Source: Byssochlamys sp. IMV 00236 (Eukaryota > Ascomycota > Eurotiomycetes > Eurotiales > Thermoascaceae). Taken from it: a stretch of DNA of 64,000 nt. The notes under the pieces are model-generated. The model did not search any database and was not told the DNA's origin. It saw nothing but the letters and a program-made list of their open reading frames with translations. The position numbers and the translations under genes are program-made. How positions within the stretch are numbered: position 1 is the stretch's first letter; every line of letters begins with the position of its first letter. The stretch is from contig MSJH02000775.1 in assembly GCA_001931875.2 (NCBI GenBank), forward strand, positions 149,981 through 213,980, written 5' to 3'. Below, one piece after another: positions 13,739-53,216 of the stretch.

Positions 13739-15757
13739 ATGGCCTTGCGCACATCTGCTACCAACGCAGAGGACGTTGCGGCCGGTTTTATGCGATTCCG
13801 AGAACCCCTACCTGAACACGCGACAGAGATTACTGGGTTGATCGCAGATCTCTATGGAATCAGCACCTCTCTAAATGCTCTGGAAGAACTCACCAGGTCT
13901 GGTGATTTCCGCTATCGCCGCAACGTGCCCCTGGTTCGGCCCGATCTCGAACTGGTCCGCGCGAGTTTGAAGTATACCCTGGAAGATATTGTCGATTTCT
14001 TCGGGAACATCGACCCCAGAAGCCCTGCGACTAGGGAAATCTACAAACGAACGTGGTTTGAATTATCCACATTCTTTCGTCGCGAGATCAATTATTCGCT
14101 GGCGACCCGTCTGCGGAAGTATAAGTTGTTTCTGAGGGAGTTGGAGGATTTCACAGCAGAGTATGCTTGATTCCGCTTAGCTAGGTAAAGGTTAGAATCA
14201 TTGCTGACAGTCTTCTGTGAATAGTCACTTTCCCGACAAGGGGTTCATGTCTGATCTCCGTGACGGGATCAAAGCTCTGCTGGAAGTCCAGGACAATCGA
14301 TTGGCTCTGAGAATTGGCGGGCTAGAGATAGGAGGCCCAGCATCCTCCGATAGTCACAGTACAGGCCCAAGTAGCCCCATGAGTGAGCGGTTTCCGAGGA
14401 TGCGTCGTTCGTACGAGCGCCATCGTCCACCAACATTGCCTCCACAGTCCCCTCAACCTCCTTTATCTCCGTCGACCGTGACCTTCTCGGACATGCCGCC
14501 ATCCCTCTCAGAGGGGTCGACTTCTCCAACAACTATCTCCACCGCTCCATCCATGCTGTCAAACCCCGTTAATGAACACTGGGCAAAGGGGGTATTCGCA
14601 AGAGATATCCCAAGGACCCGTATCCCGTTTGTAGGCGACAAGTGAGTGGTTTTTTTCTGATCCACTTTCCGTGAAAGTATCAAAGGACTGACCATGCGTA
14701 GTTCCGAATGTGTTGGAGACCCTCATCCGCGTCTCAGACGCTTCCTTATCGAGAATGAATTTGAGGAACTCTTGCAGCTGTAAGCAGCCGTCTTGCCTTT
14801 AGTGTCATAGATCTGACGGTTGCCAGGCCCTTCAATGACGGCGCGGGTTTCTGCGTCTACTTCTACGTTCGTCAGGAAGACCGTCGAGCGCGTATCGTGT
14901 GCGAAGTACCTCATGCGACACGGTCAAACGAGTATTTCTGCTACCCGCTCAACCTGCTTGAGATTTGCCGGGAAGGTTCGTGCCTTCAGATCTGTCGGAG
15001 GCGCCGTGCTGGTACAGAACTGCATCTCTGGGCAAACCTCAAATTCAACACAATTGAAAGTAAGTAGAAACAGCTGAAGATTTGCCGTGGCTGTAGTGGA
15101 GCTAACCGTGGTATCCAGAGATGGTCCTCTTCTTCTGCACCTTCCTGGCCCTTCGTTCTCAGGATATGGGCAAGCCAGTATCTCATATCCTAGATTGCGA
15201 ACTAGACGGCGAAGAAGAAATTTTCGGAGGGTAAGCTCCACTCACCGTCCGATTTTCTAAACCAGGACCATGTGCTGACCATATGTAGACAAATAGTAGA
15301 GAATAATACGTTGCATGCACTGCGCATATACCAAGACACCACATCTAAGGCGGTACGGTTGCAAGCGTCCATCCATAGGGGCGATATGAAACGGTAAGAA
15401 CTCTGTATGACTCTGTATTCTAGAGGATACTAACATTCACAGGGCTCCTCTTTGGACTGCATTTATCACGGATAATGTCCAGTCGTCCGGATGGTTACGA
15501 CGTATGGACTCCAAATCATTGTACCTGCGTCACTTGCGCCGGACGGTCTTCTTCCCTCCCGAGTTTACACTCCCGCAGGGTCGCAAGCCCGAATACATTC
15601 TGCGTTTCGCAAGCAAATCTGGTAAGTGTGGGCAATGTTATCTCCCGCTTGAGAATCTATACGACCTGATCCGAAGGGAAATCATCGCTAACTGGACCTA
15701 CGTACAGACACCGACGATTTCATCGAGGCTGTCGAGGAGCTCGCAATTGACGTGTAA
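13739..15757 (+). CDS. Conserved filamentous-fungus protein, eight exons, function unknown
   Basis: Exons are 13739-14160, 14225-14641, 14702-14779, 14827-15059, 15119-15230, 15289-15393, 15443-15621 and 15708-15757. All phases agree and the product is 531 residues. The N-terminal 140 residues are helical (TGLIADLYGISTSLNALEEL, then NYSLATRLRKYKLFLRELED). A Ser/Pro-rich disordered linker follows (about 170-255). The C-terminal half is a compact beta-rich part with GAGFCVYFYVRQEDRRARIV, EGSCLQICRRRR and LHLWANLKFNTIEKMVLFF. The architecture (helical bundle, linker, PH-like or filamin-like beta domain) suggests a scaffold or membrane-proximal regulator. This is inference; I do not recognise a named family. 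Confidence 0.8.
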
Positions 15758-16548
15758 GCCATAACCTACCGGTTTAAAAGTTCGTGCAAACGCACGAGTT
15801 ACGACGACTATCATTCCTGCCCTGTTGACGATAATGACGTTCCGAACTTTCTGGATTGCATATTATGAATTCTTACGACTGTTACGACTTGACGTTTGCA
15901 TGATTCTGACGGCTTTCTATCACCCATACTGTTCGGATATTATCGGTATTATTCTCTAATCTCCTGATGACGAATCGAAAATGGATAATACCCCCGATGG
16001 CTGAAGGGAAGGTTCCCCTACTCAAGGAAGGAAAGATGTTTATTGTTAGACTATTGTTATCATTATATTACCCCATACTCATGAGTCATGCCACCATTCA
16101 CCTACCCTTCAATGTTTTCGTTGGTGTCGTTGTTGTTACTACATGATGTTGGCCTGATTGCTTGGCTCGCTTCGCGGCGATTACCTTCCCCTTCTCAATT
16201 AATACCGGTTGATTCGCACATTTGACTTCATATTTTATAAAATACCATGATGCCCGTAATTGTAACTTTGTGCTGAAGATCTTTCGATGGTCCTATATCT
16301 TCAATATCGTGTTGGATATCATAGTAAAATGAGAATAGGGATCGATGACCGTCTATGGTGGGGACCTATCTCGTGAAGTAAAGACACAGTTCCATATGAT
16401 TCATGTCGAAGTTCTCATGTCTATAAAACAGAGGGGGTATCTTATAATAATAACAGAACTGCCAAATAGACAGACAATATCATGCCAGAGGAGCAAATAG
16501 GTAGATGAAATATCATGACTGCCGCCAGGAGATGGGGGCTCCTTTTCA
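15758..16548. other. Convergent intergenic region
   Basis: Two genes end facing each other across about 790 AT-rich bases. I see only 3' UTR-like sequence and no gene. Confidence 0.4.
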
Positions 16549-19174: not shown

Positions 19175-21794
19175 AACTGAGGCGATAGTGACAGTTTGTC
19201 GAATATTGAATGGCACAGAAGCATGTCTGATTTGAACCGCATAGATTGTACATCTAGGCTGCTTGAATTGCTTGCTTGATTCTAGTTCGAAGAGGGTAAT
19301 TTGAACCCATGTTTACCCCCTATAGCATACAAAGAATCTAGATCCCAGTGATCTAGTAGGTAATTAGGATCCAAAGAACCTGCTGCAAACAGATCACCCA
19401 GACGTAAGCTTGTGCGTCGACACTGTTCAGAGTCTTCGAATTCAGAGTTCTTCTATGATACTTTTCCTATATCTTTGATCGATGTCCCGGCTGAGCCTGA
19501 TAGAAGGATTTGGATACACTCAGCCCACCCACAATATACTAACAACACTCTGGCTCACTCTAAAAAAAACACAATTGGACGAGTGCCCAATGCAAAGACG
19601 ACTATCACTAATTATTATAAGAGAGACGCATTGTAGATTATCATAACTCATGAAACTCTTGGTTAAAATGTCTTATCACCAATATAAATCCACTAGAATA
19701 GGTATAGTAGATATATTGGCAGCTCCTTCACGGGCCCATGTGAAGATATCCTAGCAGGGATAGTTATCTACTCCCGAGTAATTGAATAACAAGAGCCACG
19801 TGCGGTCTCCAAATTGACTATTGGCAATAGGGAATTAGGCTCGCGTCTGGCGCTTCGAGCATAATCAACGCATCCTTGGCATATCGAGATAGTAATTATA
19901 TCAAGCTAATTCTACTTACGCGGGATGAGAAAAAACTATACTGATCGCTTAATTTTATTTTCTGCAGGGGAATTTTATAGTCCTTATGTAATTTTATCCT
20001 CCAAGTAACTAACTAACTAGTTACCCTACTCTATTCCTCTTATGTCTATCACTCCATCCTGCCAGACTATTTAATTAACGCTCAAGGTCCCCTCTTGTTT
20101 GTCCTTGTTATTATTATTATTATTGTTCGCTTAATACCTCAACTTAAACTTCCCCCTTCGAATAAGCTAACGGATGTAGATCCCTATCTCTAGCGCATAA
20201 GATAAGCAGGCACGTTCGTGGTGATAACTTATGGCGCATCTCTTCCCGACGAAAGATACATTATGATTGGACCAAGCTCGGAGAAAGCTTCTTTTGCCCA
20301 GATAAAACAGGGGCATGCATATTAAATAATAGCTTTATGACCATCAAAGCCAAAGTCGTGCATCGTTATCAGATATTACGAACCACGGGGATATATCCAA
20401 GATGGGATATTGTCGGATCTTGCTCCCATGCAGCAATCCAAGCAGCACCTGCAGGTGGGCTATTTGTAATTACGGATATGCAACTACAAACGGACGACCA
20501 CGCATACCGTGGCTTAATTCCATGATACGAGTAGCAGGGTAACAGCAGCAGCGATGGAAGCTTTTCTGGGAACTCAGCAAGTCCTGTATGATAAGTGCTG
20601 TAGCTACATCGTTTGATTGCGGTTCATTCTAGATATCGAGCAATAATAGTTAAAAAAGGGTTTTGAACTTGACTCTATGTTCTGCCCAGCTTTTTGCTTC
20701 CCGTGATCTGTGATTCGACAGATATATAACTCCTCTGTTTCCCCCCCTCCCCCCTTTACCCCCTTGTTAGCGTCATTATTATAGGCGATAATCTCAGTTC
20801 AACCTGCGGTGAACGCGTATATGCGGAAAAACAAAAAAGAAAAAAAAATGAAAGAAAAAGACCTTTCCGCTGACCAATCCATAGAATAGTTACTTGTCAA
20901 AGCTTCTCTGTCTCAAGTTCCAGAGACCCACAGATTGAGAGAAGACGATCCCAGGACCCCCACCAGTTTCAGAACTCTGAGAACCGGGTCGTCGTGATTT
21001 TTTTCTTCTTCTGACTATAAATCTTACGTATAGGCGTATCCAACTGCTCTAACTATGGGTAGTGGACCGGTACAACGATACCGGGACCGAAATCGATGGA
21101 AAAGAAAAAAAAAGAAGCTACTACTAAGATCGTCCATGCAAGATGCAGATTAGCATCTGAGCTCCAATTCAATAGTCGTTCTAAACTTTCAGCTTCTTCT
21201 TTTTTTTTTTAAACTTCTTGGTCCCCGAGGACCGCCGAAGGAGCCGTTAAACAAGTTCAAGGGACGGCGTTGTTCTAAGAAAGTGTAATCATGATGATCA
21301 ATGATTATTCCCCGCCAAGATCTGAGATCACATGAAGTGTGGCCGTACATGGCCGGATGTGGTTAGTGTATCCGTGGCTGAGGAAAAGTGGCTCACTCGA
21401 ATTGTGGCGTCGTGGCTGTGGTATAGTTTTTATACAGTTACATTTACAGTAAAAAGTTTTAGTTACTAGTGTAGAGGTTAAAACACAAACTCAAAAGCCC
21501 ACGAGGTGACGAGTGAGACCCAGTAGCGGCCTTAGCACTTCTGATGGGGAAGACGGTAAGCTTAAACAGAAAAAAAAGGGGGGGCCAAGGCAAGAAACAA
21601 GCCAAGAGTCCGGATCGTGGCCGAGATGGATTAGGCCGACCTTCTTGGAATTACGCTAGTCGTTTACTACTACGAGAGTCTAGAGTACTCTTGAGTTTTG
21701 ATGTGTTATGCTAAGATACTACGGCTGTTACTACAGGGACGGTGTTCGATTATCTTCTCCGAAGGCAATCGTAAAGGATTGCCTATTCTTACTG

Positions 21795-21851
<57 letters not shown>

Positions 21852-22077
21852 AAGAGACTGACTGAAGTGTGAAAAGTGTTCGATGCAGTATTGAATTCTA
21901 TAATGTATGTACTTCATGTATGTTGACGTGTCACGATCAATCCATAAATCCATCAAGTCTATGTATAGGGAAATCATGTACATGCCCGGAGATACGACTC
22001 CATACTCCGATATAAAATATTGAGAAACCAATCCAATAACACAGAAATGTACATACAGTGAAACATGTTGTAAAATT
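19175..22077. other. Gene-free stretch of 2.9 kb
   Basis: I find no supportable gene. Features are AT-rich patches (around 19900-20130, with a TTA/ATT run near 20108-20124), homopolymer-rich segments near 20840 and 21205, and a long GT microsatellite at 21797-21849. The right end is the 3' flank of the GH16/AT3 gene. Such a stretch could be a decayed accessory region, but no transposase relic is readable. Confidence 0.4.
21797..21849. repeat. (GT)n microsatellite
   Basis: About 26 perfect GT dinucleotides lie roughly 230 bp beyond the stop codon of the minus-strand GH16/AT3 gene. A run this long is a likely length-polymorphic marker. Confidence 0.95.
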
Positions 22078-25000
22078 TCAGACCTCTGAGATCGTCTCTG
22101 ATATCGTGGCCTTGCCATCGGGACCTTTGCCCTTCTTCTCATCTATCGTGTCTGGTGTATCGGCCCGGGCAGCATCCACATCACGGTTCAGCAGTTGCCT
22201 GCCAAAAGGATACGTGGTGGGCTTTCTCGGTGCCGGCTCCTGGCTGGCGTGCTCCCACACCGTCAGAGTGAAATTCTTACCGAGCAGCTCGATGGGCGGC
22301 GTCAAGATAGGGAGAACGGCAAAGATCATGCCATAGCAGATGATTGCCGTCAGAAGGACGCACAACCAGTAAGGTAGGCCATAGGAGAAGAGTGTCACCA
22401 TAGCCCACGAACCAGCAGACCACATGATGAAACCGTGAATCAGATAGATAGTGAAGATGTGAGGGAAGACCCACTGCAGAACCTTGACCGAGAGCACTCT
22501 TTGAACCACAGGGGAAATTTCCACGATGGTTTGCATGCTGACCGTGGTGATCAAAGCATTCAGTCGAGGAATGTAGTAGTCCGGGTAGAGGCTGCGTCCA
22601 GCCTGTACGATGGCGAGACCAGTCGTCGTGTCGGGATGCCACCCATATTCCTTCTCGGCATACTGGACACCGGTGTACTGGGGAATCAGGTCGAGAGTAA
22701 AGCCGCCCAGAGTGACCGCGATGAGGAACCACAGGATAGGGTAGTAGACGAACGGGCGAGCATGCAGCCACTTCTTGTACTTGAAGGTAAGGTCAAGGTC
22801 TGCAAGAAGCACTCCGGCGTAGTAGTAGCTGCCCCACGAAAGACCGTACCAGTGGTTAGCGATGCAGAAGGCGTAGAAAGCCATCCGCTTCCAAGGCGTC
22901 TTGCATTGCTTGACCATGATCAGACCAATCAGAGTTTGCCAGGCGCCCTGCAATTGGACGGGGATGGTCCAGAGCACTCCGGTACAGTAGTTGTTGGTGA
23001 TCTGGGGAGCGGCATTTGGAATCAGGAAGGCGAGCTCAACGATCTCACTGATGAACACACCAGGGTTCTGCACAAGCGTAACGTACGGCCACTGTGACCA
23101 CGTAACAGAAGGGAGGTATTCGAGCCAGTTCACGGCTCCCGAATCCATGAGGAAGTACTCGAGAAGAGCAATTGATGCGACCGGAGTGAGAAGACGGAAC
23201 GGACGAGAAACAATTTTCTGGGCCATGTTTCCCAGGTTGCCTGTACGAAGATAATTGGAGATGAGGAAGCGGGTGGAAATCATGAGGAACGGCCCGATCC
23301 AGAGAGGATCTAGGAAGTAGGTTGCGATAGTCTTTCTCGCCCACAACTCACTGGAATAATGGTGGTCCAGTCCAGGCTCCAGGACGGATGCGAAGAAGGT
23401 CAAACAAAAATGGTTCACCGTGACCAGAAGCGCACTCATAGAGATGAAACCAGCCAAGTAGTCAATGCGCTGACGGGGCAGAGCAGCTCCTGCAGCCGGA
23501 GATGCTTTGACTGCAGGAGTCTTGCGTTCGGTCGCCGCAGGAGCCTGGGGATCCTGCCTCTGTTGAGGCACATCTGCAGAGAAAAATCCTGGGGTAGGGG
23601 GTGCGCTCAATTCCATCGAAGGATGCACCAGGGTGCTGCTGCTGGGACTACCATGGTATTCCACATCTTCCTTGATGGATCTAGGAGTTTTACTGGTCCC
23701 TGCACGGCGTCCCTGGGTTCGTGAGATGAGAGAGCTTGCCTGCGCATCTGCCGGATAAATTGGCTGGATCGTCAGATCGTCAGCTGAGTTGGTTCGCGAT
23801 GGCCGTGGGGATACTACTGGGGTTTGATATTGAGGTGCCGGGGTTTGAGGAACAGAGTACGCCGGCGGTGGTGACAGGCTAGCGTAAGAAGACACATTTG
23901 GAAGGTTATGTCTGCTCGCAAGAGGACTGCCAGTATCAGTGTTTGCGAGAGTCGCGCCGTCGTCAGTTGACTGAGCGTCGCTCTCGCTCCTGTCTGAGGC
24001 CGCAGAGGAGCCCGCAGTCTCCTTCCTTTCCTTAAGGCCAAGGAATTCATAGAGGGAGTCCCAGGAGGCTCTCCGCCACAATGTCTTGACGAGTAAGATT
24101 GTAAAGACAGAAAGGAAAGCAATGTCAATCGCAAGAGGAACCCAGGGAATCGTCCACTTGGGTTGGGCCTGCTTCCAGGGTTTCGTGGCATCGAGATCAT
24201 AGGCCGTGGAGCCTCGAAGAGCGTTGTCGCTCATGGGACAGGCTGCAGTACGTGTGCATCGTGCATCGAAATCCTTTCGTGTCTTGTCTGTCGCCAACGA
24301 CGAGTTGTAGAAGATACGAGTCCAGCCGATGTTTGCCTGAGAGCGCTGGGTTGGAGGGCCCTGGCAGCTATATTTGTTTCCCGTTGACCAGTGCTGCCAT
24401 TTCAACGGTGCCGGTGTGCTTGGTAAGGTTCCGTTTTCCTTCTTCGTGTACATCTTTTGGAGCTGGCCGTCGATGTAGTAACTGATGTTGTCTCTGGTCC
24501 AGTCCACGCGATATTCGAGGTAGTACCACGGATCCTCTCCAGCATGGATGAGATCGGTGAAATTCTTTCCCAGCCAGATATCAGGGAAGACACCATTGGC
24601 AAGCATGGAGACCCAGGCCTGGCTGCTGTTGTCGGTGTTCATCACGTCGATGTTCCATCGCTCAGTTTCGTTGTGATAGAGCAGCATCGATAGAGCAGAT
24701 CCCCTGTGCCAGGACCGCGGGGCACGCATAGAAGACCGGAAAGACCCGAAAAAGATGTCTTGACGTTTGGTGCGGATACTCGCGCCATTGACCAAGTGCT
24801 CCTTGTCTGAGGGGTCAATGGCGAGCTCCAGGCTGGTGAGGTTGCGCGCGGTGGTGTCGTTGACGATGTTGACATTGTCCACCTTGGCTCCCTGACGGTA
24901 AACGGTGTTCCAGCCTAGATCATACCTGTGCTCGAACGACTCGATGACCAGGTCGTCAGGGACACCATTGGTTTCGTTGAAGTATACAATGGTGCTGTCT

Positions 25001-25128
25001 GTGAAGAGGAGGTCGGCGTCTTCATCATAGAAGCCGCACGTGCAGCTGGAAAACTCCCGGGTCGTCAACTCCTGAGCACGGCAGACAGAGACCAACAACA
25101 CCAACACCCACGACCAGAGAGACGCCAT
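22078..25128 (-). CDS. Secreted GH16-like domain fused to an acyltransferase-3-like membrane domain
   Basis: This is a single-exon 1016-residue protein. Residues 1-18 are a signal peptide (MASLWSWVLVLLVSVCRAQ). About 25-300 form a jelly-roll domain resembling GH16/concanavalin-A-like glucanases (CTCGFYDEDADLLFTDS; WYYLEYRVDWTRDNISYYID) with many N-glycosylation sequons. A transmembrane helix lies near 329-348, then a Ser/Pro-rich cytosolic linker to about 550. About 555-960 form a ten-or-so-helix membrane domain of acyltransferase-3 type (DYLAGFISMSALLVTVNHF; VLWTIPVQLQGAWQTLIGL; YYYAGVLLADLDL). At the GH16 catalytic strand, where the family has ExDxxE, the sequence is NIDVMN (159-164), so hydrolase activity is doubtful. 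Likely role (inference): binding and O-acylation of a cell-surface polysaccharide. It is divergent from the GT2 synthase. Confidence 0.85.
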   Translation of the reverse strand: MASLWSWVLVLLVSVCRAQELTTREFSSCTCGFYDEDADLLFTDSTIVYFNETNGVPDDLVIESFEHRYDLGWNTVYRQGAKVDNVNIVNDTTARNLTSLELAIDPSDKEHLVNGASIRTKRQDIFFGSFRSSMRAPRSWHRGSALSMLLYHNETERWNIDVMNTDNSSQAWVSMLANGVFPDIWLGKNFTDLIHAGEDPWYYLEYRVDWTRDNISYYIDGQLQKMYTKKENGTLPSTPAPLKWQHWSTGNKYSCQGPPTQRSQANIGWTRIFYNSSLATDKTRKDFDARCTRTAACPMSDNALRGSTAYDLDATKPWKQAQPKWTIPWVPLAIDIAFLSVFTILLVKTLWRRASWDSLYEFLGLKERKETAGSSAASDRSESDAQSTDDGATLANTDTGSPLASRHNLPNVSSYASLSPPPAYSVPQTPAPQYQTPVVSPRPSRTNSADDLTIQPIYPADAQASSLISRTQGRRAGTSKTPRSIKEDVEYHGSPSSSTLVHPSMELSAPPTPGFFSADVPQQRQDPQAPAATERKTPAVKASPAAGAALPRQRIDYLAGFISMSALLVTVNHFCLTFFASVLEPGLDHHYSSELWARKTIATYFLDPLWIGPFLMISTRFLISNYLRTGNLGNMAQKIVSRPFRLLTPVASIALLEYFLMDSGAVNWLEYLPSVTWSQWPYVTLVQNPGVFISEIVELAFLIPNAAPQITNNYCTGVLWTIPVQLQGAWQTLIGLIMVKQCKTPWKRMAFYAFCIANHWYGLSWGSYYYAGVLLADLDLTFKYKKWLHARPFVYYPILWFLIAVTLGGFTLDLIPQYTGVQYAEKEYGWHPDTTTGLAIVQAGRSLYPDYYIPRLNALITTVSMQTIVEISPVVQRVLSVKVLQWVFPHIFTIYLIHGFIMWSAGSWAMVTLFSYGLPYWLCVLLTAIICYGMIFAVLPILTPPIELLGKNFTLTVWEHASQEPAPRKPTTYPFGRQLLNRDVDAARADTPDTIDEKKGKGPDGKATISETISEV

Positions 25129-27090
25129 TCTGTCTGGCTTGAGAAGTACAAAGGATTATGCAGGTACGGACAAGGTCCCTGGCAGAAAGGCGCTGAAGAA
25201 CAGGAGGACGATGGCGGCTCCTGGGTCTTAAGAAAACGACCTTCGACCAAGCTTGCTTTTGGTGCAGTCCAGTTCTGAACTTATCAATTATTATCGCCCG
25301 TGGGGCCCCAGCAGCACTGCTGATCCGCCCGTGGACGACACTAGATACGTCTCTGGGCTGAATCTTGGTTCTACTTCCGACGATGTCCTCCCGGTGTCGG
25401 TCTCGAATCGTTCTGGTTCGGATTTCCACCCACCTAGAGGAAAAGCTCGATAAGGCTACGGATGGATGCGGTCTGATAGACTCGATATTACCGAGATAGT
25501 ATCTGACATGGGGCCTGCAGGCCTATCATCCAACAAACGGTCCACGCCCTTGATGAGATTTCCGTCTCAATGCTACTCAGCCCTGACGATGTGACCATAA
25601 CGATTCTGTCAGCAGAACCATGAGTCGACTGAAAAGTATACTACTTTTGCAAGGACCCCCAGCTAGGTCCTCCGCTTGACCCACCGTGTTTTGTGACGGT
25701 ATTGAAGCACCGAGTATGGATATCTTGTGGCGCTCTCTTATACAGCTGCGGTCCGGCCAAATAATTCGGCCTTTTTTTAGCTTCAGCCATGACCTTGAGG
25801 ACTTGACACTAAAAACCTGCTCGCCTTGAAGCTTATCTGAAGGTTACTGAGCAGAATAGGTAATGCTTCATGGCGAAGATGGCCGAAGAAAAGCTTCCCT
25901 CAGAGCGATAATCTTGGTTGACGGACACCCTAAAGAAAATAGCTCATCGTCTGACGACTGATCCCACGGAAAAGCAACCATCCCACAGGCTGACCGATAT
26001 TCCGCATAAATGAAACGAACGGACGAACGAACGAAAGAAAGAAAGAAAAGGCGTGATCATGGCACTCTGAGTCGTTTTCGATACAGATCGGCAACGCGTG
26101 CAACTGAGGATGCAGCGCATCAGCCGGGCGACAGGCACATCAGTAAGCAGCGCAGGCGCCGTTGGCGTTCTCGTGCCAGTGAATGCGGGAGAAGCGCAGT
26201 TGTTACCAGGGGACGCTGTCAGGCACGGGAAGTGATATCCTGCTAGTCGGGACCGAGATGTAACTTAAAATTCTGCAGGCTGTCGATCACTGGGATCTCT
26301 CCACCAGCATCATCCATCGTCAAAGCGCGGATCTATCTGAAGTGGCGCCGACATCTGCGAACCGGTCAAGGGACTCCGACCCCAGCAGAACGCCACGCTA
26401 CTGAGCCACGAGGGTAAGAAAGGGTAAACCTTGAATGCCGAGTCTCTGGTACCTGACTACCAGTATTATGATTTTCTGGATCTCGGACAACATTCTGGCG
26501 CCCGCTACGTCAGTCAGTCCCTTCGGACGGGATCCTGCTGTCCCTACAATGCAATGGAATTGAATTTTTTTTTTCTCTCGGTAATTGATCTCGGGCGATC
26601 AACCATAGCCCATGAGTACCTACTACGACAGCACGTACTCGGTACCCACGACGTATGGGAGCCAGACTAACTAACTAGTCGCGACGTATCTACTACGACT
26701 CTACGAGTAAGTACGGAGTACAATCCAATCCGTTGGTCGCCGACCGACTCTCCGGGAGATCGGCGGATGCTAGATAGTAGATACTAGGGTAGTAGAGGCC
26801 CGCTAGCGCTTTACAACCCAACTCTAGGCTCCGAGCTGGAGACGTGAGCCCAAAGATCCAGCAGGGTATCGACGAGATACGCAACTAAGTTATCCTTATC
26901 GGGTTCCCTGCTCTGATGGATTCCGAGAAAGTTTGCAGGCGCCTCGGCCGACGACCGGGCTTGTCTTTCCTTTCTGGACAGCGCTGGGCTCATTCAAAGG
27001 TGCGCTTGCGCCAGCACATTTGATCGAAGTTCTCCTCGGTTTTCCCATCAACCACAGCAGTCCAGCCTTGACGGAACATCATCCTGCAAG
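25129..27090. promoter_or_regulatory. Divergent promoter between GH16/AT3 and GT2 synthase
   Basis: This 1.96-kb region separates two divergently transcribed polysaccharide genes. There is no reading frame of interest. It contains a GAAC/GAAA-rich tract near 26016-26048 and a T run near 26564. Its length suggests complex or condition-dependent regulation, but no specific binding site is identifiable by eye. Confidence 0.45.
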
Positions 27091-28692
27091 ATGTCGACCG
27101 CACCCATGGCGAACGGCTCTGAGGAGGACCTCTTTGACGGTGCGTACCAGCGCCAGTCGCGGCCAAGGCAGCTGCGCTCCAGCATGTCCAAGATGGTCAG
27201 TAGCCTCTCCTGGACGATCAAGACGGCATCAGATGGAATTCAAGACTGGACTCCATTCGTGCTCGTGTTTTGTTATTTCGCCTTTTCCATCTGCATCTAC
27301 ATGGTTGCGTCGTCGGGGGTCATGAAGGTCTTCTGGTTCGTCTACCTGATGACCAACACTTACATCGCCGCTTCTACCGTTGTCGAAGCCATGTTCAGTG
27401 TGGGCAAATACCACGAAGCCAAGGTGGCCGCGGCCAAAGTCGAAAAGAACCACTGGACCTTTCCGACCCCGGACGCGGAAATGAAGAACCTCGACCTATG
27501 CATTGTCGCCTACCTGCCCAACGAACAAGATATCATCCTCGACCGCATCAACTATCTGTTGCAGGAGATCGTTTACCCGCGCGATAAGCTCCGCATTGTC
27601 GTTCTCTACAACACGCCAACCCCCATTGAGCCTCTTGAGACTGAGATGCGCGCCATGATGTTGAAGCACCCAGAACTGCGAGTTATCAAGGTGCCCAAGT
27701 CTAAGTCGAAGGCCGATAACATCAACTACTACTGCTCTCTTGAAAATGATGCGGACGTGACGGCCATCTTTGACTGTGATCATTACCCGCACCCGTACAA
27801 TCCGCGATGGGCAGTGGAGAACTTCCAGCGCGATGATCAAGTCGATATCGTCCAGGGCCGCTGTGTTATCTTCAACTCAGACGACACCCTCTTGACTGCC
27901 ATGATCTCGGTCGAGTTTGACAAGATCTATGCCGTCTCTCACCCCGGACGCTCTACCATGTTCGGGTTTGGTCTGTTCTGCGGTTCCAACGGTTTCTGGC
28001 GAACGTCTCTCCTCCGGCACCTGAAGATGGACGAGACCATGTTGACCGAGGATATCGATTCGGCCCTACGAGCCTTTGGTGTCGGTGCCAAGGTCATCCA
28101 TGATCTGAACGTCGTCTCATTCGAACTGGCCCCGACTACATGGCCAGCTTTCTGGAAGCAGAGACTTCGATGGAGTCAGGGCTGGCTGCAGGCCAGCGTA
28201 AGACATATCCATAAGGTCTGGACTCGATCTCCGGAGGGCCGGAAGCGCACGCTTACCCACCGGTTTGGCTTGCTCTCGCTGCTCTACATTCGAGAATCCA
28301 GTTACTACTTAGTTACACAGTATCTGTGCCTGGTGGCTGCGATCGTTATCATGCGATGGCCTCAGTCGGGCGAAGACCTCTTTAAACTGGTGTTCTTCAT
28401 GTACCCTGTTGCATGGTGGCTCTTTATGTTCAGGTAAGTCTCTTGTTAGCGTCCTTTTGCATGTTCCTATCCGAAGTTCGGACGGCTAATGTGCGCCTGC
28501 AGTTGCATTTCCTACGTTGTTACTCTCTGGATCACCTTCCACACACGATCCGAGTTTGTGCGGTGGTGGCATATCATCGTCTTCACTTTGACCTACCCGG
28601 CCCAGCTTATCCTGACAGCGGTAATGGGTCTATTTGGCCATGCACGCCAGGTCAGCAAATACGTCAAGTGGAACCCGACCCCGAGAAGTTAG
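27091..28692 (+). CDS. Processive family-2 glycosyltransferase, Cps1-type polysaccharide synthase
   Basis: There are two exons, 27091-28433 and 28503-28692 (intron GTAAGT...TGCAG, 69 nt), encoding 510 residues. Two N-terminal membrane helices (about 54-75 and 78-98) precede a GT-A catalytic domain with the full processive GT2 signature. It has Asp209 in KSKSKADN, the DxD motif FDCD (Asp228/Asp230), TED at 319-321 and QRLRW at 357-361. A CGSNGFWR loop is also present. Further helices follow (about 390-490). This is the architecture of hyaluronan/cellulose-type synthases that polymerise and export a glycan at the plasma membrane. Among fungal proteins it most resembles the Cps1 polysaccharide synthase group (from memory). 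The sugar made cannot be read from the sequence. Its neighbours are two AT3-like membrane proteins, suggesting an acylated polymer. Confidence 0.9.
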
Positions 28693-30308
28693 CCGGCACG
28701 GGCTGGTCGGTGGAGCAAATGAGATTTGGTTACGTATGAGGAGTTTTGGTTTTTTTTTGGACTTTCTGGGCTGTACACATTACATTTATCCCGGTTCTTT
28801 TTGGGTTAGCAAAAGTGGCATATAGAGTGGGATATAGATGATTCTTCATTTTTGGTAGCGAGAAAATGCTTGGCAATGCCTGTTTTCTTCCGACTTGGAT
28901 CTTCACACCAAGCTTTCTATTATCTAACCAGTGAATTAGTTTCTTCCTCGCATGTGATAAGGGGACCGACGCAGCAAATCAGCGCACTCCTAAAAAAGAA
29001 AAGATGAAGAAGAAAGAAAGGAGAGTAAAGAAGCATTCGGACCTTGGTGGAAGCCCACTGGTCACATCGTCTACTGCAGGGCCCGGATCACCGCGTGGGA
29101 CAGGGCCGCGTTGCTAGGTGGGTTACATAGCCGAGAGAGATCGACGTGCTTAGCCTTTGAATCACATCTTTGGCCATCAGAAGCACCATCCGTCAAGAGA
29201 CAGAATGGCGGGAAAGGCCACCGGGTGGCTTCGGGGGCGCTCGACGAGACCCTGATTTGGCACGGGAGCTTCCTCTGGTTCAGGTCGTTTCAGGTCCAAC
29301 TCCAAGGCTAAAAAGCGAATGGAGAAGTCCAGAGCCGCCAAGGCGCGAGAAGATGCCAAGAGTGCGGTCTTGAATCCCCTTTCCGTTCCGTGGCGCGCGG
29401 AATCTAACATCCAGCATCCAGAAATGAACTATCCATGGACCCTAAAATGACGCTAGAGGGTAACGTACGACTCTATACCAGTTGCCATTTAGTACAGCAC
29501 TACAGCTCCATCGTGAAGTCTAAAATGCTTATCGGATCGACATCCAAAGAGGGGCGTGTCTAAGCTTTCTGCTCAAGAGCATTTTGCTGCGGATCGAGTC
29601 GGTGAAACGCCGTATTCTGTCGCCATGGAAGCTCTTGCACCTGGGCCACGAGCTGAACGGAGATCCGCTAGAGCACGGTCGAGAACTTCCTACTTGGTCC
29701 ATGGACTACGCTCAGATCTACAACCCCAAATATTGGGCTATCGACCGGGTTCATGGTACAGTACCATCGCCCGTATCGTCCCAGTTGGTTTCTAGCGTCC
29801 GAGCGATGCATTACCTGCTCCAGTCTATCTAATGCAGAAGCGAAGCAGACAGTGCCTGCATCACAACCCCGGAGCTGGAATTAGCTTCTTACCATGATAT
29901 GGTTACCGCCGTCTCTCTCTCTCTCTCTCTATCTGGGTCTTATTCGGACACGGAACTGTACCGTAAGCCCACCATCCGTTCTGCTGTCCCCTCTTTGAGG
30001 ACCCCGAGATCTCTCCAATGGTTCTGGACTCGTACGTGAGAGGCTAATCGGTCTGGTTCGGATGAGGTAGTAGTCTTCCTGGGTCTTTTTTTTGCTTTCC
30101 CGCATTAGCCATTTATGCTATCAGCGCAGGTGTCATTGAAATGTGAAAGCATCCCCAACTTCTCTTTCCTCTCAACAGATCACACGTCTCTTCTTGCTTT
30201 CTGTTGCTGTATTTGTCTGTAGTCGGCTTGGGAACTCCTCCTCATCTGCCTGAGGATCTCTTCTCGAACTGTTTGGAGCTCGTTGCCCTTTTACCGTTTC
30301 TGCCAAAC
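28693..30308. other. Intergenic between GT2 synthase and AT3-like gene
   Basis: These 1.6 kb carry no gene I can support. A CT dinucleotide run sits at 29912-29930. The last 250 bases are pyrimidine-rich and likely the promoter and leader of the AT3-like gene, whose frame stays open 5' of its ATG without another Met. Confidence 0.4.
29912..29930. repeat. (TC)n microsatellite
   Basis: A short perfect CT dinucleotide run of about nine units lies in non-coding DNA. Confidence 0.85.
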
Positions 30309-31695
30309 ATGGGGTTCGCAGAGATCGTCAACAGTGCCCCCAAGCTCAAGATGGGCTCGCCCACGGAGTATGAGCAGCCCTATCTGTTGGGTTTCCGCGG
30401 CATCTTGGTGATCGAGACGTTTCTGTGGACATTCCTCCGTACCTTTGCTCCTACTACTGTGTACGTTTCTGCGGATCCCAATGGTCCCTTTTCGTACCAG
30501 ATAGTCCGCAAGATCTTTTCGGTCCTCTTCTGGAACGAATACTTCCTGTATGGTGCCATCATCTTTCTCTCCGCGCGCTCAATTGCCATTCCGTTTATCA
30601 GGAATCCAAAGGCGGAGCGGGCTGCCATGTCGATGATGTGTCGTGGTATCACCCTTTGGTTCCCAGTTGCTGTGTCCGTGGCCATTGCGACTCTGGCTTT
30701 TGCCATTGGTGGCACTGAGTACATCGCCGACTTCAAGACGCGGACCTCCAACCATACGACAGCCGTGCCATATGTGATCCCCAACGCATTTGCCTACTTC
30801 AACTCCGTATTCAACATGTTCTGGACTACTCGTGACTACAACATCCAAGCGGCCAGCACGGCGTTCCCCACTGGTACCCTGTGGGTTATCTGTGCTGTGT
30901 ACATGCAGAGCTACACTGTCTACATGACCATGCTCATCATCCCGTACACGCGCAACAAGTGGAGAGTCCAGGGCGCCTTCGTCTTCGTCCTGTGCGCCTG
31001 GTGGTGTCAGTCTTGGGCATGGTTCACCATCTCTGGTCTGATCCTGGCCGATATGGTGATGAACATGAACTTCAAGGAGCGCGCTCAACGCGGTATTCCA
31101 GTCTGGACCCGCGCTGATGGCAGCCGGATCTGCATCCCCGTCTTCGTGCCAGCCGGTTTGTGTCTAATCGGTGGTCTTCTCATGCAATACCTCTGGGTGG
31201 CCTACCGGCCGGACCTTTTCGACAAGGAATGGCTGGTTCACACCGATCCCTACTACACCGCATCGCTCAACTTTCAGTATGCGACACGCCACACGCAGGC
31301 CCGTGACGATGCTTATCTGATGGTTATCGGCATCTTCCTCTTCTTGGAAAGCTATGATATCCTTCAGCGGATCTTCTCCAATGGCTTCCTCGTCGCTCTT
31401 GGAAAGCGCTCTCTCAGTAAGTTATCTTTTGCTATGCAATCCAGTTGTTAGTCATCGTGCTGACTGCTTTCTTCCAGGCTACTTCCTCGTCCAGTCGAAC
31501 ATGATGTACATTGTCGGCATCCGCGTGTTCGAATCTCTGTATACCAAGCACCACATCTCTTTCGGTGGCTCCAACATGGTCGCCTTGATCACCTGTCTGG
31601 TTGTTACAATCCCGTTGGCCGAGTTGTTTTATCGGTTGGTGGAGTTGCCGAGCAAGCACCTGGCGCACAAATTCTATGAGTTCATCACCGCATAG
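30309..31695 (+). CDS. Acyltransferase-3-like multispanning membrane protein
   Basis: There are two exons, 30309-31416 and 31478-31695 (intron GTAAGT...TCCAG), giving 441 residues. The start is the first ATG in the open frame (MGFAEIVNSAPKLKM). About ten hydrophobic helices are visible. Family-like landmarks are LLGFRGILVIETFLWTFLRTF near residue 25-45, LWVICAVYMQSYTVYMTMLI and WAWFTISGLILADMVM. These align by position with VLWTIPVQLQ and YYYAGVLLADL in the AT3 domain of the GH16 fusion, so the two are probably paralogous. Its first helix keeps an Arg-Gly but lacks the His usual in active AT3 enzymes. Likely role (inference): acyl transfer, or a partner in it, during modification of the polysaccharide made by the adjacent GT2 synthase. 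Confidence 0.8.
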
Positions 31696-32425
31696 AGCGG
31701 GCTTTCTGTGTTTGTACATGTACATATGGTCTAACGTTGTCTTCTGGCGTAATCGGGGTTTGAATTTCCATAGATGGGTCTGCACATGATAGAATCCGGT
31801 ACATAGTTAGTAATAGAATTGCATGTTTTTATGACAGTGTCGATTGTGCCAGAAGATACTTTGTAACGTTCCAAAGTATGGTTTATCGTGGTGTATCCAC
31901 CAAGTATTTTCCCGTCGTCGTCCGGATGTACTGCGGATCACAAACTGCGGTCCAGCGTTGCATCCCGTCATCTCGTTCCTGAGAAATCGCCGGAATTGGT
32001 AATAAGAGCGTTATCTCTCTCCACAGGGAACAGGATCTTCCTGGCTTGACAGAAGATCTCCGAGGATCCAGCAGACGGGATCACAACGTGCGCGTTGAAC
32101 CGAACTGTCTTCTCTCGGTACTGATTAAGTTAGAATTAGGATCTAGCATCCGCAGGATTAATATTATTCTCCCTTGCGTCGTGCTTAAGTAGATTTTTAG
32201 AGTTGGCTCCGATCTTCGCAGCCCCGCCAACAACGAGGACTTGGGACGTTCTTACAACGTCCACTCTTCCCCTCTTTCTTTTCCGCTTCACCGTTGAAAG
32301 TCTCTCGCACGAGGTCCGTACCCAGTCGGCTGGTTCTCGATTTCTGGTTCATTTCCTGCTTGACTTTCTGATTCCAATTGACTTTGTTCGTTCGGTTTTC
32401 TGGAAAAGTCTCTTATCGGATCATC
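31696..32425. promoter_or_regulatory. Intergenic, promoter side of homoserine dehydrogenase
   Basis: These 730 bases hold no gene. The last 250 are pyrimidine-rich with a leader-like character upstream of the ATG at 32426. No consensus TGACTCA general-control site was found by eye. Confidence 0.4.
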
Positions 32426-33656
32426 ATGTCGGCTACCCCTCTCTATCTCGGAGTCATTGGTATGTCCCACCACGCTTCAGAACCACACATGGCACAAACC
32501 CTTCGGCAGAGATGATACTCAACTCCCGAAGAACTACGGCTAACTTTTTTTTTCTTTATTGTCGTGATTTCCAGGCGTTGGTGGTGTTGGAGCCGCCTTT
32601 CTCAGCCAGCTTGCCCGTCTGCCCAATGCTCCATCGCTCGTCCTGCTCGCCCGCTCGACGCAGACGCTCCTCTCCCCAGCGCCGTCATATTCCCCTGCTA
32701 TCCCGGCTACAGACTGGCAGACTGCTTCGTCGACGCCTTCCTTGACCAAGTCTGGGTCTCTCTCGCCACAGGAGATCGCATCTTATCTCTCCGCTGCTCC
32801 AGGACGCTCTATCCTCGTCGACAACACCTCCGACCCCGCTCTCGCGAGCGCTTATCCGGTCTTCCTCCGTGCAGGTATCTCTATTGTTACGCCCAACAAG
32901 AAGGGTTTCTCGTCGGATCTGTCTCTGTGGAAGGATATATTCGCCGCTGCGGCTGAGGGAAAGGCGCTTGTCTACCACGAGAGCACGGTCGGGGCTGGTC
33001 TCCCCGTCATTTCGACTCTGCGGGATCTCGTCGCGACCGGCGATGAAGTGACTCGCATCGAGGGTGTCTTCTCCGGCACCCTGTCTTTCCTGTTCAACAC
33101 CTTCGCGCCCGTCTCGAGCAGCGGTGCGTCCGCGTCCTGGAGCGCTGTCGTCGCCCAGGCCAAGGAGCTGGGCTACACGGAACCCGACCCCCGCGATGAC
33201 CTCAACGGCATGGACGTCGCGCGCAAGCTGACCATTCTGGCCCGTATCGCTGGCCTGGAGGTGCAGGCACCGGACTCTTTCCCTATCGAATCGCTCATCC
33301 CCGCTGAATTGGCCTCTCTGCCCAGCACCCCCGAGGGCATTACGCAATTCATGACCCGTCTGCCCGAGTTCGATGGCCAGATGGCCTCGCTCAAGGAGTC
33401 GGCAGAAAAGGCAGGCAAAGTCGTTCGCTACGTTGGCAGCATCGATGTTGGCAAGAAGGAGGTCCGCGTTGGACTGCAGCAGTTTGACCAAGACAGCGCC
33501 ATTGCAGGATTGAAGGGCAGTGACAACATCATCAGCTTCTACACGCAGCGATATGGCGCCAATCCCCTGATCGTGCAGGGTGCGGGAGCCGGTGGAGATG
33601 TCACCGCTATGGGTGTTACGGCTGATCTGATCAAGGTCATGGAGAGATTGAGATAG
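32426..33656 (+). CDS. hom6: Homoserine dehydrogenase
   Basis: There are two exons, 32426-32459 and 32575-33656 (intron GTATGT...TCCAG, 115 nt), encoding 371 residues. The intron splits the nucleotide-binding motif: joining gives LGVIGVGGVGAAFLSQLA, the GxGxxG Rossmann fold. Further family motifs are VTPNKKGFS, VYHESTVGAGLPVI (substrate site), EGVFSGTLSFLFNTF and GYTEPDPRDDLNGMDVARKL with the catalytic Asp/Lys region. The enzyme reduces aspartate semialdehyde to homoserine with NAD(P)H, the branch point to threonine and methionine, in the cytosol. The usual fungal length is about 360-370. A 268-residue antisense frame over it is a codon-bias shadow. Confidence 0.96.
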
Positions 33657-51404: not shown

Positions 51405-52969
51405 ATGAGGAAGGGACAACATGATGGGATGGGGCCCAATCCCTCGTTCACATGGCACGTTGGAGTGCTTCTGCTGCTTGCGATATCCAATGTCAGTACA
51501 CTCCAAGTAGTAGTATAACCCATACTGAATTCTCCGCAGAATACGGTCAACGCACAATGGAACGCCACTATGTCAAACGCAGGACAGCAGCTGTATGATG
51601 GCCCAGTACTGTGTCCCGTTGAGATTGAATATAGCTAATTGGCATCAAAGTGCTGCTGGAACGTTGGGATCTGTTGGACTTCTACCCGGAGCACCCACGC
51701 CGACACAATCATTATTGGTTGGGGTACGATTTGTTGATTGATTTCTTATATTAAGGACATGGCTAATTATCGACTATAGACCGGAAACCTGAAGTCCAGT
51801 CCAGCGGTGGCAATAATCCCCCAAGCGCAAGGTAAGACGATATTCATGACTCGGAGTACCTGCAGTGGCTAACAATAATGAAGCTGCAGCGGACACCCTT
51901 GGATCTGTTGGGCTTTTGCCCGGAGCACCTACGCCGACACAATCATTGTTGGTTGGGGTAAGATATGTTGATTTCTAAAATTTGTGCTGCTACTGATTCT
52001 TACCAACAATCATAGACCGGAAACCTGAAGTCTAGTCAGGCGGTGGCCGCATCATCATCAGTCGCCGTAGTTGCAACATCATCGTCGGTAGCCGCAGTCG
52101 CAGCATCATCATCAGTCGCCGCAGCTGCAGCATCATCGTCAGTGGCCGCAATTGCAATATCATCGTCAGTGGCCGCAATTGCAACATCATCCTCGGTGGC
52201 CGCAGCTGCAGCATCATCGTCAGTGGCCGCAGTGGAAACATCATCGTCCTCGGTAGTCGCAGTCGCAGCATCGTCCTCGGTGGCCGCAGTCGCAGCATCG
52301 TCCTCGGTGGCCGCAGTCGCAGCATCATCATCGGTAGCCGCAATTGCAGCATCATCGTCGGTGGCCGGAGTCAGTACACCCGCCATGTCTTCCGCAGCAG
52401 TTGCGGCATCGTCATCGGCTGTTGCGGTACCTGCTGCCACACCTGCAGGTAGTGCCGGGTCCGATTCGGGAGCTTGCGACTGTACCTGTCTTTGCCCGGC
52501 TAGCGCTTTCAGCATATACCCATCCAGTTCAGCTGCCGCCCTAGCGTCAACATTCGCAACCATAATGACACCCGCATCGAGTGCTGTTGTAGCAGGCTCT
52601 ACATCAGCAGTTATGTCTTCTAGTGTCGCTGTCCCTTCCTCGAGTAGTGTTGCGGCCCAGACAGAAAGCAGTACAGCAGTACAGGCCTCTAGCTCTGCAG
52701 CGGTACAGCAATCTACCTCTGCCGCAACGTCTTCGTCGTTCGTAGCAGAGACCACTGCAGCAGCAACAACAACAACAGCAGCAGCCGCAAGTACAACTTT
52801 CACAACTGCGACATCAACAACATCAACGACCAGTGCCACAGCAGAGGCAGGGGGTGCTGCCGCAACGACTGCAGATCCATTCGATATCAACACGGTTGCA
52901 CTCCATAGCGCATTAACAATCGCGTTGTTTGGACGAGGGGAGGAAGCAGTGGCTACGGCGAGCCTGTGA
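51405..52969 (+). CDS. Secreted Ala/Ser-rich repeat protein with duplicated exons
   Basis: Six exons: 51405-51491, 51540-51592, 51651-51723, 51780-51831, 51890-51957 and 52016-52969, all phases consistent, 428 residues. A signal-anchor-like start (hydrophobic core HVGVLLLLAISN) is followed by NTVNAQWNATMSNAGQQL. Then the block TLGSVGLLPGAPTPTQSLLV plus TGNLKSS occurs twice, once per exon pair. The last exon encodes about twelve copies of a nine-residue unit (A-x-SSS-V-A-A-x, 27 nt). A CDCTCLCPASAF patch and further Ser/Thr/Ala-rich sequence follow. The composition suggests an O-mannosylated wall or surface protein. No clear GPI signal is seen at the C-terminus (ALFGRGEEAVATASL). No known family is recognised. 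Confidence 0.7.
52043..52380. repeat. Coding 27-nt minisatellite
   Basis: About twelve imperfect tandem units coding A-x-S-S-S-V-A-A-x lie within the last exon of the Ala/Ser-rich gene. One unit has an extra Ser codon. Units differ mainly at codons 2 and 9. The repeat keeps long frames open on the opposite strand too. Confidence 0.85.
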
Positions 52970-53216
52970 GGAGAGTAATATTCAGAGAATCGGAGTTGTC
53001 ATCTCTGGAAGAGGCGGCTGCTAAATATTTTCGTATTTCATGTAATGGTTATCTCTTTTGTCTGTGTCTTCAGCAACCCTTAATCGCGAGATTAGAAATT
53101 CCGGTGACATCATGCTTAGATGCTAGCAGCACTGGTTTCTGTCCCTCGGATTCGTGACTGTAAACTGTAGTAGTGTTATGGCGTACCTTTAAGTCCGCCT
53201 GTATTGCCCGCTTGTA
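52970..53216. other. Convergent 3' flanks
   Basis: The 247-bp gap between the Ala/Ser-rich gene and rpp1 holds nothing further. Confidence 0.4.

Follow-up and report, generated by a model that had tools for sequence, protein, structure and literature searches.

Genes of the locus

We analysed a 64,000-nucleotide stretch of the genome of the mould Byssochlamys sp. IMV 00236 (contig MSJH02000775.1 of assembly GCA_001931875.2, positions 149,981 to 213,980 of the forward strand; hereafter the window, to which positions refer unless another contig is named), and in it the span 22078-31695, where a polysaccharide-synthase-like gene stands between two genes for acyltransferase-3 (AT3)-like membrane proteins. 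The window lies on contig C772 of the 47.4-Mb assembly (G000, 840 contigs). Rebuilt gene models place three genes in the span: A on the minus strand (25128..22078, one exon without an intron, 1016 amino acids), and B (27091..28433 and 28503..28692, 510 amino acids) and C (30309..31416 and 31478..31695, 441 amino acids) on the plus strand, the latter two with one GT-AG intron each (28434-28502 and 31417-31477, respectively). A and B are divergent around an intergenic region of 1962 bp (25129..27090), which from orientation alone is a putative shared promoter region, and B and C stand in tandem, 1616 bp apart. An initial annotation of this DNA had described long intergenic regions and no other gene within 9.6 kb, and the latter holds for the span itself: no further convincing gene was seen inside the trio in the open-frame list, an Rfam scan of 20000-33500 gave zero matches at the gathering score, and the next gene-sized frame begins at ~32.5 kb. 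The three frames are real genes rather than chance, as each has close homologues in named fungi; their proteins match those of Paecilomyces variotii (A 100%, C 100%, and B 94% identity, the last to strain No. 5).

Gene A (22078..25128, minus strand) encodes a signal-peptide-like start (judged by eye and hydropathy alone), a GH16-fold ectodomain (~residues 23-277; 24298..25062, minus strand), one transmembrane helix, a long disordered linker that is presumably cytosolic, and an AT3 (TmAT) domain (~residues 554-960; 22249..23469, minus strand). Pfam recognizes the GH16 part (E=1.9e-9); its AT3 match (PF01757, E=0.24) falls below the cut-off in the window member, and PF01757 matches 33 of 40 scanned members of the family at E<=1, the best at 7e-9. 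In a fold search with a rather weak structure model (predicted local distance difference test score, pLDDT, 72.8), GH16 chains filled the list of matches with rows covering residues 26-277, which supports a GH16 fold for the modeled ectodomain; because these chains filled the list, it contains no separate fold match for the AT3 domain. Family counts here and below rest on the best 120 matches of 307 (A), 1292 (B) and 259 (C) from protein searches, in alignments of 121 (A), 122 (B) and 121 (C) rows. The GH16 catalytic motif is ExDx(x)E, and it occurs in 0 of the 118 A rows (of 121) that cover the site; the GH16 domain of A has lost its catalytic motif.

Gene C by itself has no credible Pfam match (best E=4.2). 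Among 56 members of its family, PF01757 is matched by 7 (best 1.6e-4) and DUF418 by 8, all at E<=1, with none for PF01757 in the window's C. Foldseek with the C model found no match in the PDB at E<=0.001, HGSNAT standing at rank 8 (E 0.29), and one unnamed match among viral models (E 5.2e-4); VIA-align recovered HGSNAT from the Foldseek list, and the modeled protein has the TmAT fold. The C profile matched nothing at E<=1 among PDB sequences, and a search of GTDB genomes for prokaryotic relatives gave 41 pattern matches, 0 confirmed. Profile-profile comparison with hhalign aligns C to the C-terminal domain of A over 391 columns (probability 98.8%, E 9.4e-17). Judged by their sequences, A and C are paralogues, both in the AT3/TmAT superfamily. 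The earlier descriptions of A as a divergent GH16-like/AT3 fusion and of C as AT3-like are thus correct by Pfam, by the family members, by the predicted fold of C and by the profile-profile comparison.

The divided R-X10-H motif

In AT3 proteins, an R-X10-H motif in transmembrane helix 1 (TMH1) is described as absolutely conserved (Arg14/His25 in OafB) and an RxxR in TMH3 as highly conserved (PMC9833829). The TMH1 Arg lies at the acyl-coenzyme A (acyl-CoA) site and is essential in HGSNAT, OafB and OacB (PMC12423673). At this Arg position, C has Arg in 118 of the 119 rows with a letter (Arg30 in the window) and Lys in the other, while A has Arg in 0/121 (Ile562 in the window). At the His position, A has His in 113/121 rows (His573 in the window), Asn in 7/121 and Gln in 1/121, and C has His in 0/121. 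The motif is therefore complementary: C keeps the Arg without the His, A keeps the His without the Arg, and neither family holds a full R-X10-H. The two acyltransferases of the initial annotation find no support in the form stated, given the absence of the AT3 His from every C row and of the catalytic motif from the GH16 domain of A.

Control AT3 proteins of the same genome (L001-L003) keep both residues, reading DGLRG and then His eleven residues past the Arg; TMH1 was visible in these three of the five PF01757 loci and not in the frames examined for L004 and L005. Over TMH1 both family profiles match L002 in register, although their scores in that stretch are low (A 7.8 bits, C 1.0 bit); the register between A and C is that given by hhalign. 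RxxR of TMH3 is intact in A (R642 and R645, each 121/121); in C the first Arg is kept in 121/121 rows and the second in 49/121, with Thr in the window's C. The TMH9 Tyr and the His three residues on are kept in 120/120 A rows with a letter; C has mostly Phe/Leu for the Tyr and mostly Gln for the His, in columns thinned by gaps and unspliced calls. Many C rows are unspliced gene calls without the second exon, so that C counts from ~residue 372 onward are thinned. Within TMH2, an S-x-R is common to both families (Arg620 in A, 119/121; Arg90 in C, 121/121), and L001-L003 read SGY there.

One reading, in line with the two putative acyltransferases of the initial annotation, is that A and C modify the polymer independently of each other, perhaps at distinct sites or with distinct acyl groups. 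Membership of both in the AT3/TmAT superfamily favors this, as would an alternative active site formed in C by its near-invariant set (E307 in 119/121 rows, and H311, R332 and D334 in 120/121 each) and the presence in A, just before TMH1, of Arg554 (118/121) and Asp556 (117/121), the former eight residues ahead of the lost Arg position. The complete loss of the TMH1 Arg from A and of the AT3 His from C, together with the altered TMH9 residues of C, nevertheless makes independent enzymes unlikely. A different view is that nothing is acylated and that the AT3-fold proteins are co-polymerase or export subunits of the synthase. This was once proposed for IcaC, first thought to be a transporter of poly-N-acetylglucosamine (PNAG) and whose biochemical function has been called an outstanding problem (PMC9558356), and motif decay in A and C alike would fit it as well. 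A purely structural protein would, however, not be expected to retain the TMH1 His, RxxR and TMH9 pair as A does, and we regard this view as quite improbable. We take C to be a degenerate paralogue of A and likely its partner in a physical pair.

Conservation of the trio and the identity of its synthase

To locate the families together, matches of different families were assigned to one contig where their longest contigs agree in size. Among the matches listed, at least 51 contigs carry at least two of the families and 16 of these carry all three, against accidental matches averaging 0.6 with a maximum of 4 in 500 draws with sizes jittered by 10%. Twenty of the 51 linked contigs are shorter than 50 kb, which places the genes in a near neighborhood; for the 27 of at least 100 kb the result means the same contig only. 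On contigs of at least 100 kb, the matches listed include a partner for A in 23 of 48 cases, for B in 22 of 59 and for C in 19 of 35, the unpartnered ones being uninformative because only the best 120 matches per family were compared. Locus tags give a closer view: C, B and A are consecutive in Claussenomyces and Leptodophora (Leotiomycetes), Rhinocladiella (Eurotiomycetes) and Sarea (Sareomycetes); in Cryomyces (Dothideomycetes) the C and A tags differ by two; in Lecanora (Lecanoromycetes) B and C are consecutive, with A not seen among the matches listed; and in Rasamsonia a single tag number stands between C and B. Saccharata (Dothideomycetes) has all three families on one 2.6-Mb contig, which does not imply adjacency. 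The three genes are a unit kept, whole or in part, in several fungal classes, and the comparison of gene order proposed with the initial annotation thus finds linkage well beyond close relatives.

The same genome holds a second trio (A', B', C') on contig C837, within 10.2 kb and in the same order and orientation. Identity between the copies, by matched stretch, is 43% for A, 58 and 54% for B and 52 and 39% for C, and the introns of B and C lie at identical positions in both. Each of the three trees (118 A, 120 B and 121 C rows, leaving out 3 A rows shorter than 800 amino acids and 2 B rows shorter than 400) puts the window and C837 copies on opposite sides of a deep split; the B tree is quick and midpoint-rooted and drew long-branch warnings, its root split having a Shimodaira-Hasegawa-like approximate likelihood ratio test (SH-aLRT) value of 94. 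Clade labels of linked genes agree on 47 of the 51 contigs, with 3 discordant and 1 unlabelled. The trio was duplicated as a whole block. It could be argued that A, B and C are neighbors by descent only, with no joint function, as microsynteny can persist passively and the intergenic gaps are long (1.6-2.0 kb). We give this hardly any credence, since the linkage recurs in several classes, the clades agree block-wise, and two copies in one genome have diverged to 39-58% identity.

Gene B has a GT2 match in Pfam (E=1.3e-16) and is a processive-type, cellulose-synthase-like GT2 with DxD, TED and QxxRW in a 30-member alignment, plus an FCGS-like motif; the complete motif set noted initially (KADN, DCD, TED, QRLRW) indeed falls in invariant or nearly invariant columns. 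At E<=0.001 the B profile matches nothing in the PDB but cellulose synthases (best 9.7e-11), so that BcsA belongs to the only family of known structure matched at that threshold. B and BcsA also share the motifs KAxN, DxD, FCGS, TED and QxxRW. B differs from BcsA in that Pfam finds no PilZ match across its 510 amino acids, and its predicted membrane segments are fewer than those of BcsA. Could B instead make a short glycolipid or oligosaccharide that the A/C pair then acylates? AT3 proteins do act on small molecules as well, in antibiotic biosynthesis (PMC9833829). The processive-type motifs of B, including QxxRW and the FCGS-like one, its PDB matches at E<=0.001, all of them cellulose synthases, and the polysaccharide-hydrolase fold encoded next door in A make a short product very improbable.

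The synthase is not of the Cps1 type to which it was initially assigned. The CpsA orthologue of this genome (Cps1/ZtGT2 family) is a separate gene, L043, on contig C695 (110532-111254, minus strand), discovered by a Pfam search. The peptides NWRSNLT and MVSHGWE, encoded by the published quantitative polymerase chain reaction primers for Aspergillus fumigatus cpsA (Table 2 of PMC6485754), are both present in L043 and absent from all 122 B rows. Of 122 B rows, 115 have a DxD-to-QxxRW spacing of 129 (130 in 4, and 128, 140 and 340 in one each), whereas FvCpsA has 140, MoGT2 145 and the C695 gene 148. A protein search of the genome with B did not return the C695 gene, and a tail pattern derived from the primers gave 0 matches as a search for the orthologue. 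We also considered B and its C837 paralogue as the Cps1/Cps2 pair of PMC9500679, which the C695 gene, the primer peptides and the motif spacing rule out. B does resemble Cps1/CpsA/ZtGT2/MoGT2 in being a GT2 of fungal membranes that carries DxD and QxxRW, but it is a distinct gene with its own spacing; mutant phenotypes of cpsA, ZtGT2 and MoGT2 therefore have no direct bearing on the trio. Literature searched by locus tag for neighbors of Botrytis and Neurospora cps yielded only papers on cps genes, a different family.

Further GT2 matches lie on small contigs of 37-41% G+C (e.g. L027, L031-L033, L037, L038, L040 and L041), several of them chitin-synthase-like by eye, whereas the trio loci have 49-52% G+C; the assembly may include a second organism. 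On the 18.6-kb contig C579, one 547-amino-acid GT2 frame appears twice, inverted and with equal scores (L044 and L045; 2354-3058, minus strand, and 15583-16287, plus strand), either an inverted duplication or an assembly artefact.

A proposed machine for an acylated glycan

The make-and-modify module of the initial annotation survives in part: a conserved unit, a synthase and two AT3 superfamily members stand, while the Cps1 type and the pair of acyltransferases as stated are without support. In its place we propose, as moderately probable, that the three proteins work as a membrane machine for making and acylating an extracellular glycan, where the extrusion, the sugar, the acyl identity and the physical pairing of A, B and C are the parts that we infer. 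Like bacterial cellulose synthase, B would polymerize sugar from a nucleotide sugar in the cytosol and extrude the chain; its product would most likely be a beta-linked glucan, given the closest solved relatives of B and the lichenase-like fold beside it. Having a GH16 fold without the catalytic motif, A would hold the emerging chain outside the cell rather than cut it, and its AT3 domain would draw on cytosolic acyl-CoA to attach an acyl group, probably acetyl, to hydroxyls of the chain outside. C would give A structural support or supply what A has lost. A comparable arrangement has been suggested for the ica system, in which IcaC would lie close to the synthase, so that the acyl group could pass straight to the polymer as it emerges (PMC9833829, 'Ideas and speculation'). 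A more specific version, which we hold tentatively and consider doubtful, is that the acyltransferase is an obligate heteromer of A and C with R-X10-H divided between them (the Arg that grips acyl-CoA from C, the His from A), docked on B and steered by the dead GH16 'hand'.

Several points weigh against these proposals. A may be impaired, since for OafB, OacB and HGSNAT the TMH1 Arg, which A lacks, is essential (PMC12423673). Arg554 and Asp556 could replace that Arg, which is the chief argument against a functional division and weakens the complementation idea. Residues of one transmembrane domain are no simple substitute for those of another, and trans-complementation would require an intimate heteromer. 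C may be inactive or serve in another role, and its missing His is no proof of inactivity, as GWT1 lacks the one of HGSNAT. The eight A rows without His (7 Asn, 1 Gln) are to be read beside HGSNAT, which has Asn there (PMC12423673). GT2 motifs do not reveal the donor sugar. Finally, the block-wise agreement has exceptions: the discordant linked contigs measure 1,670, 7,332 and 33,523 bp, and the unlabelled A lies on one of 23,092 bp. Two of the three discordant contigs involve a small basal B group (P0333, P0321) that the automatic split placed outside clade I, and the 1,670-bp contig, which could not accommodate the two genes if they were spaced as in the window, is probably an accidental equal length.

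Encoding a synthase together with an AT3 protein is known from bacteria. In the staphylococcal ica locus, the IcaAD synthase extrudes the polymer and the AT3 protein IcaC is suggested to O-succinylate it (PMC9833829, PMC9558356). The trio shares this pairing; it differs in being fungal, in dividing the motif between a pair of AT3 paralogues, one of which is fused to a GH16 fold without its catalytic motif, and in a synthase whose profile matches cellulose synthase. Like the AT3-SGNH fusions OafB and OatA, A tethers an AT3 domain to an extracytoplasmic carbohydrate-active fold, although its ectodomain is N-terminal, of GH16 fold and without the catalytic motif, and R-X10-H is intact in OafB. 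HGSNAT and GWT1, of the TmAT superfamily, stand at 8-12% identity, and the trio proteins are set apart by being encoded beside a polysaccharide synthase and, for C, by Val/Met/Thr/Ile at the AT3 His position. Literature searches for a fungal GT2-AT3(-GH16) module, with most subscription papers outside their coverage, listed no paper that describes the trio or any fungal coupling of a GT2 synthase to AT3 acyltransferases. What is new here is that the unit is fungal, that it includes a dead-GH16 fusion and that the motif is divided.

To our knowledge, no synthase has been assigned to several of the polymers found in the wall and on the surface of filamentous fungi. A recurring unit, present twice in one mould, offers a direct genetic handle, as loss of one gene should abolish the polymer and loss of another should strip it of acyl groups alone. 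In the AT3 superfamily, where R-X10-H has been called absolutely conserved (PMC9833829), its division is a sharp anomaly that can be tested; if A and C do share the motif functionally, together they would form a transmembrane acyltransferase with a split active site, the eukaryotic equivalent of bacterial machines that acylate polymers. Were the heteromer real, O-acetylated glucans such as the pustulan of lichens might come from the trio. The pustulan of Lasallia pustulata is reported to be partly acetylated (PMC7389562), and a protein of this species (P0177) is among the A homologues listed, making pustulan a possible product lead.

Around the trio, a long GT microsatellite lies at ~21797-21849, just past the 3' end of gene A. 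The downstream frame at 32568-33656 resembles, by eye, what we take to be a homoserine dehydrogenase. Farther along, at 52016-52998, open frames overlap on both strands with a repetitive Ala/Ser/Val pattern, probably a low-complexity repeat.

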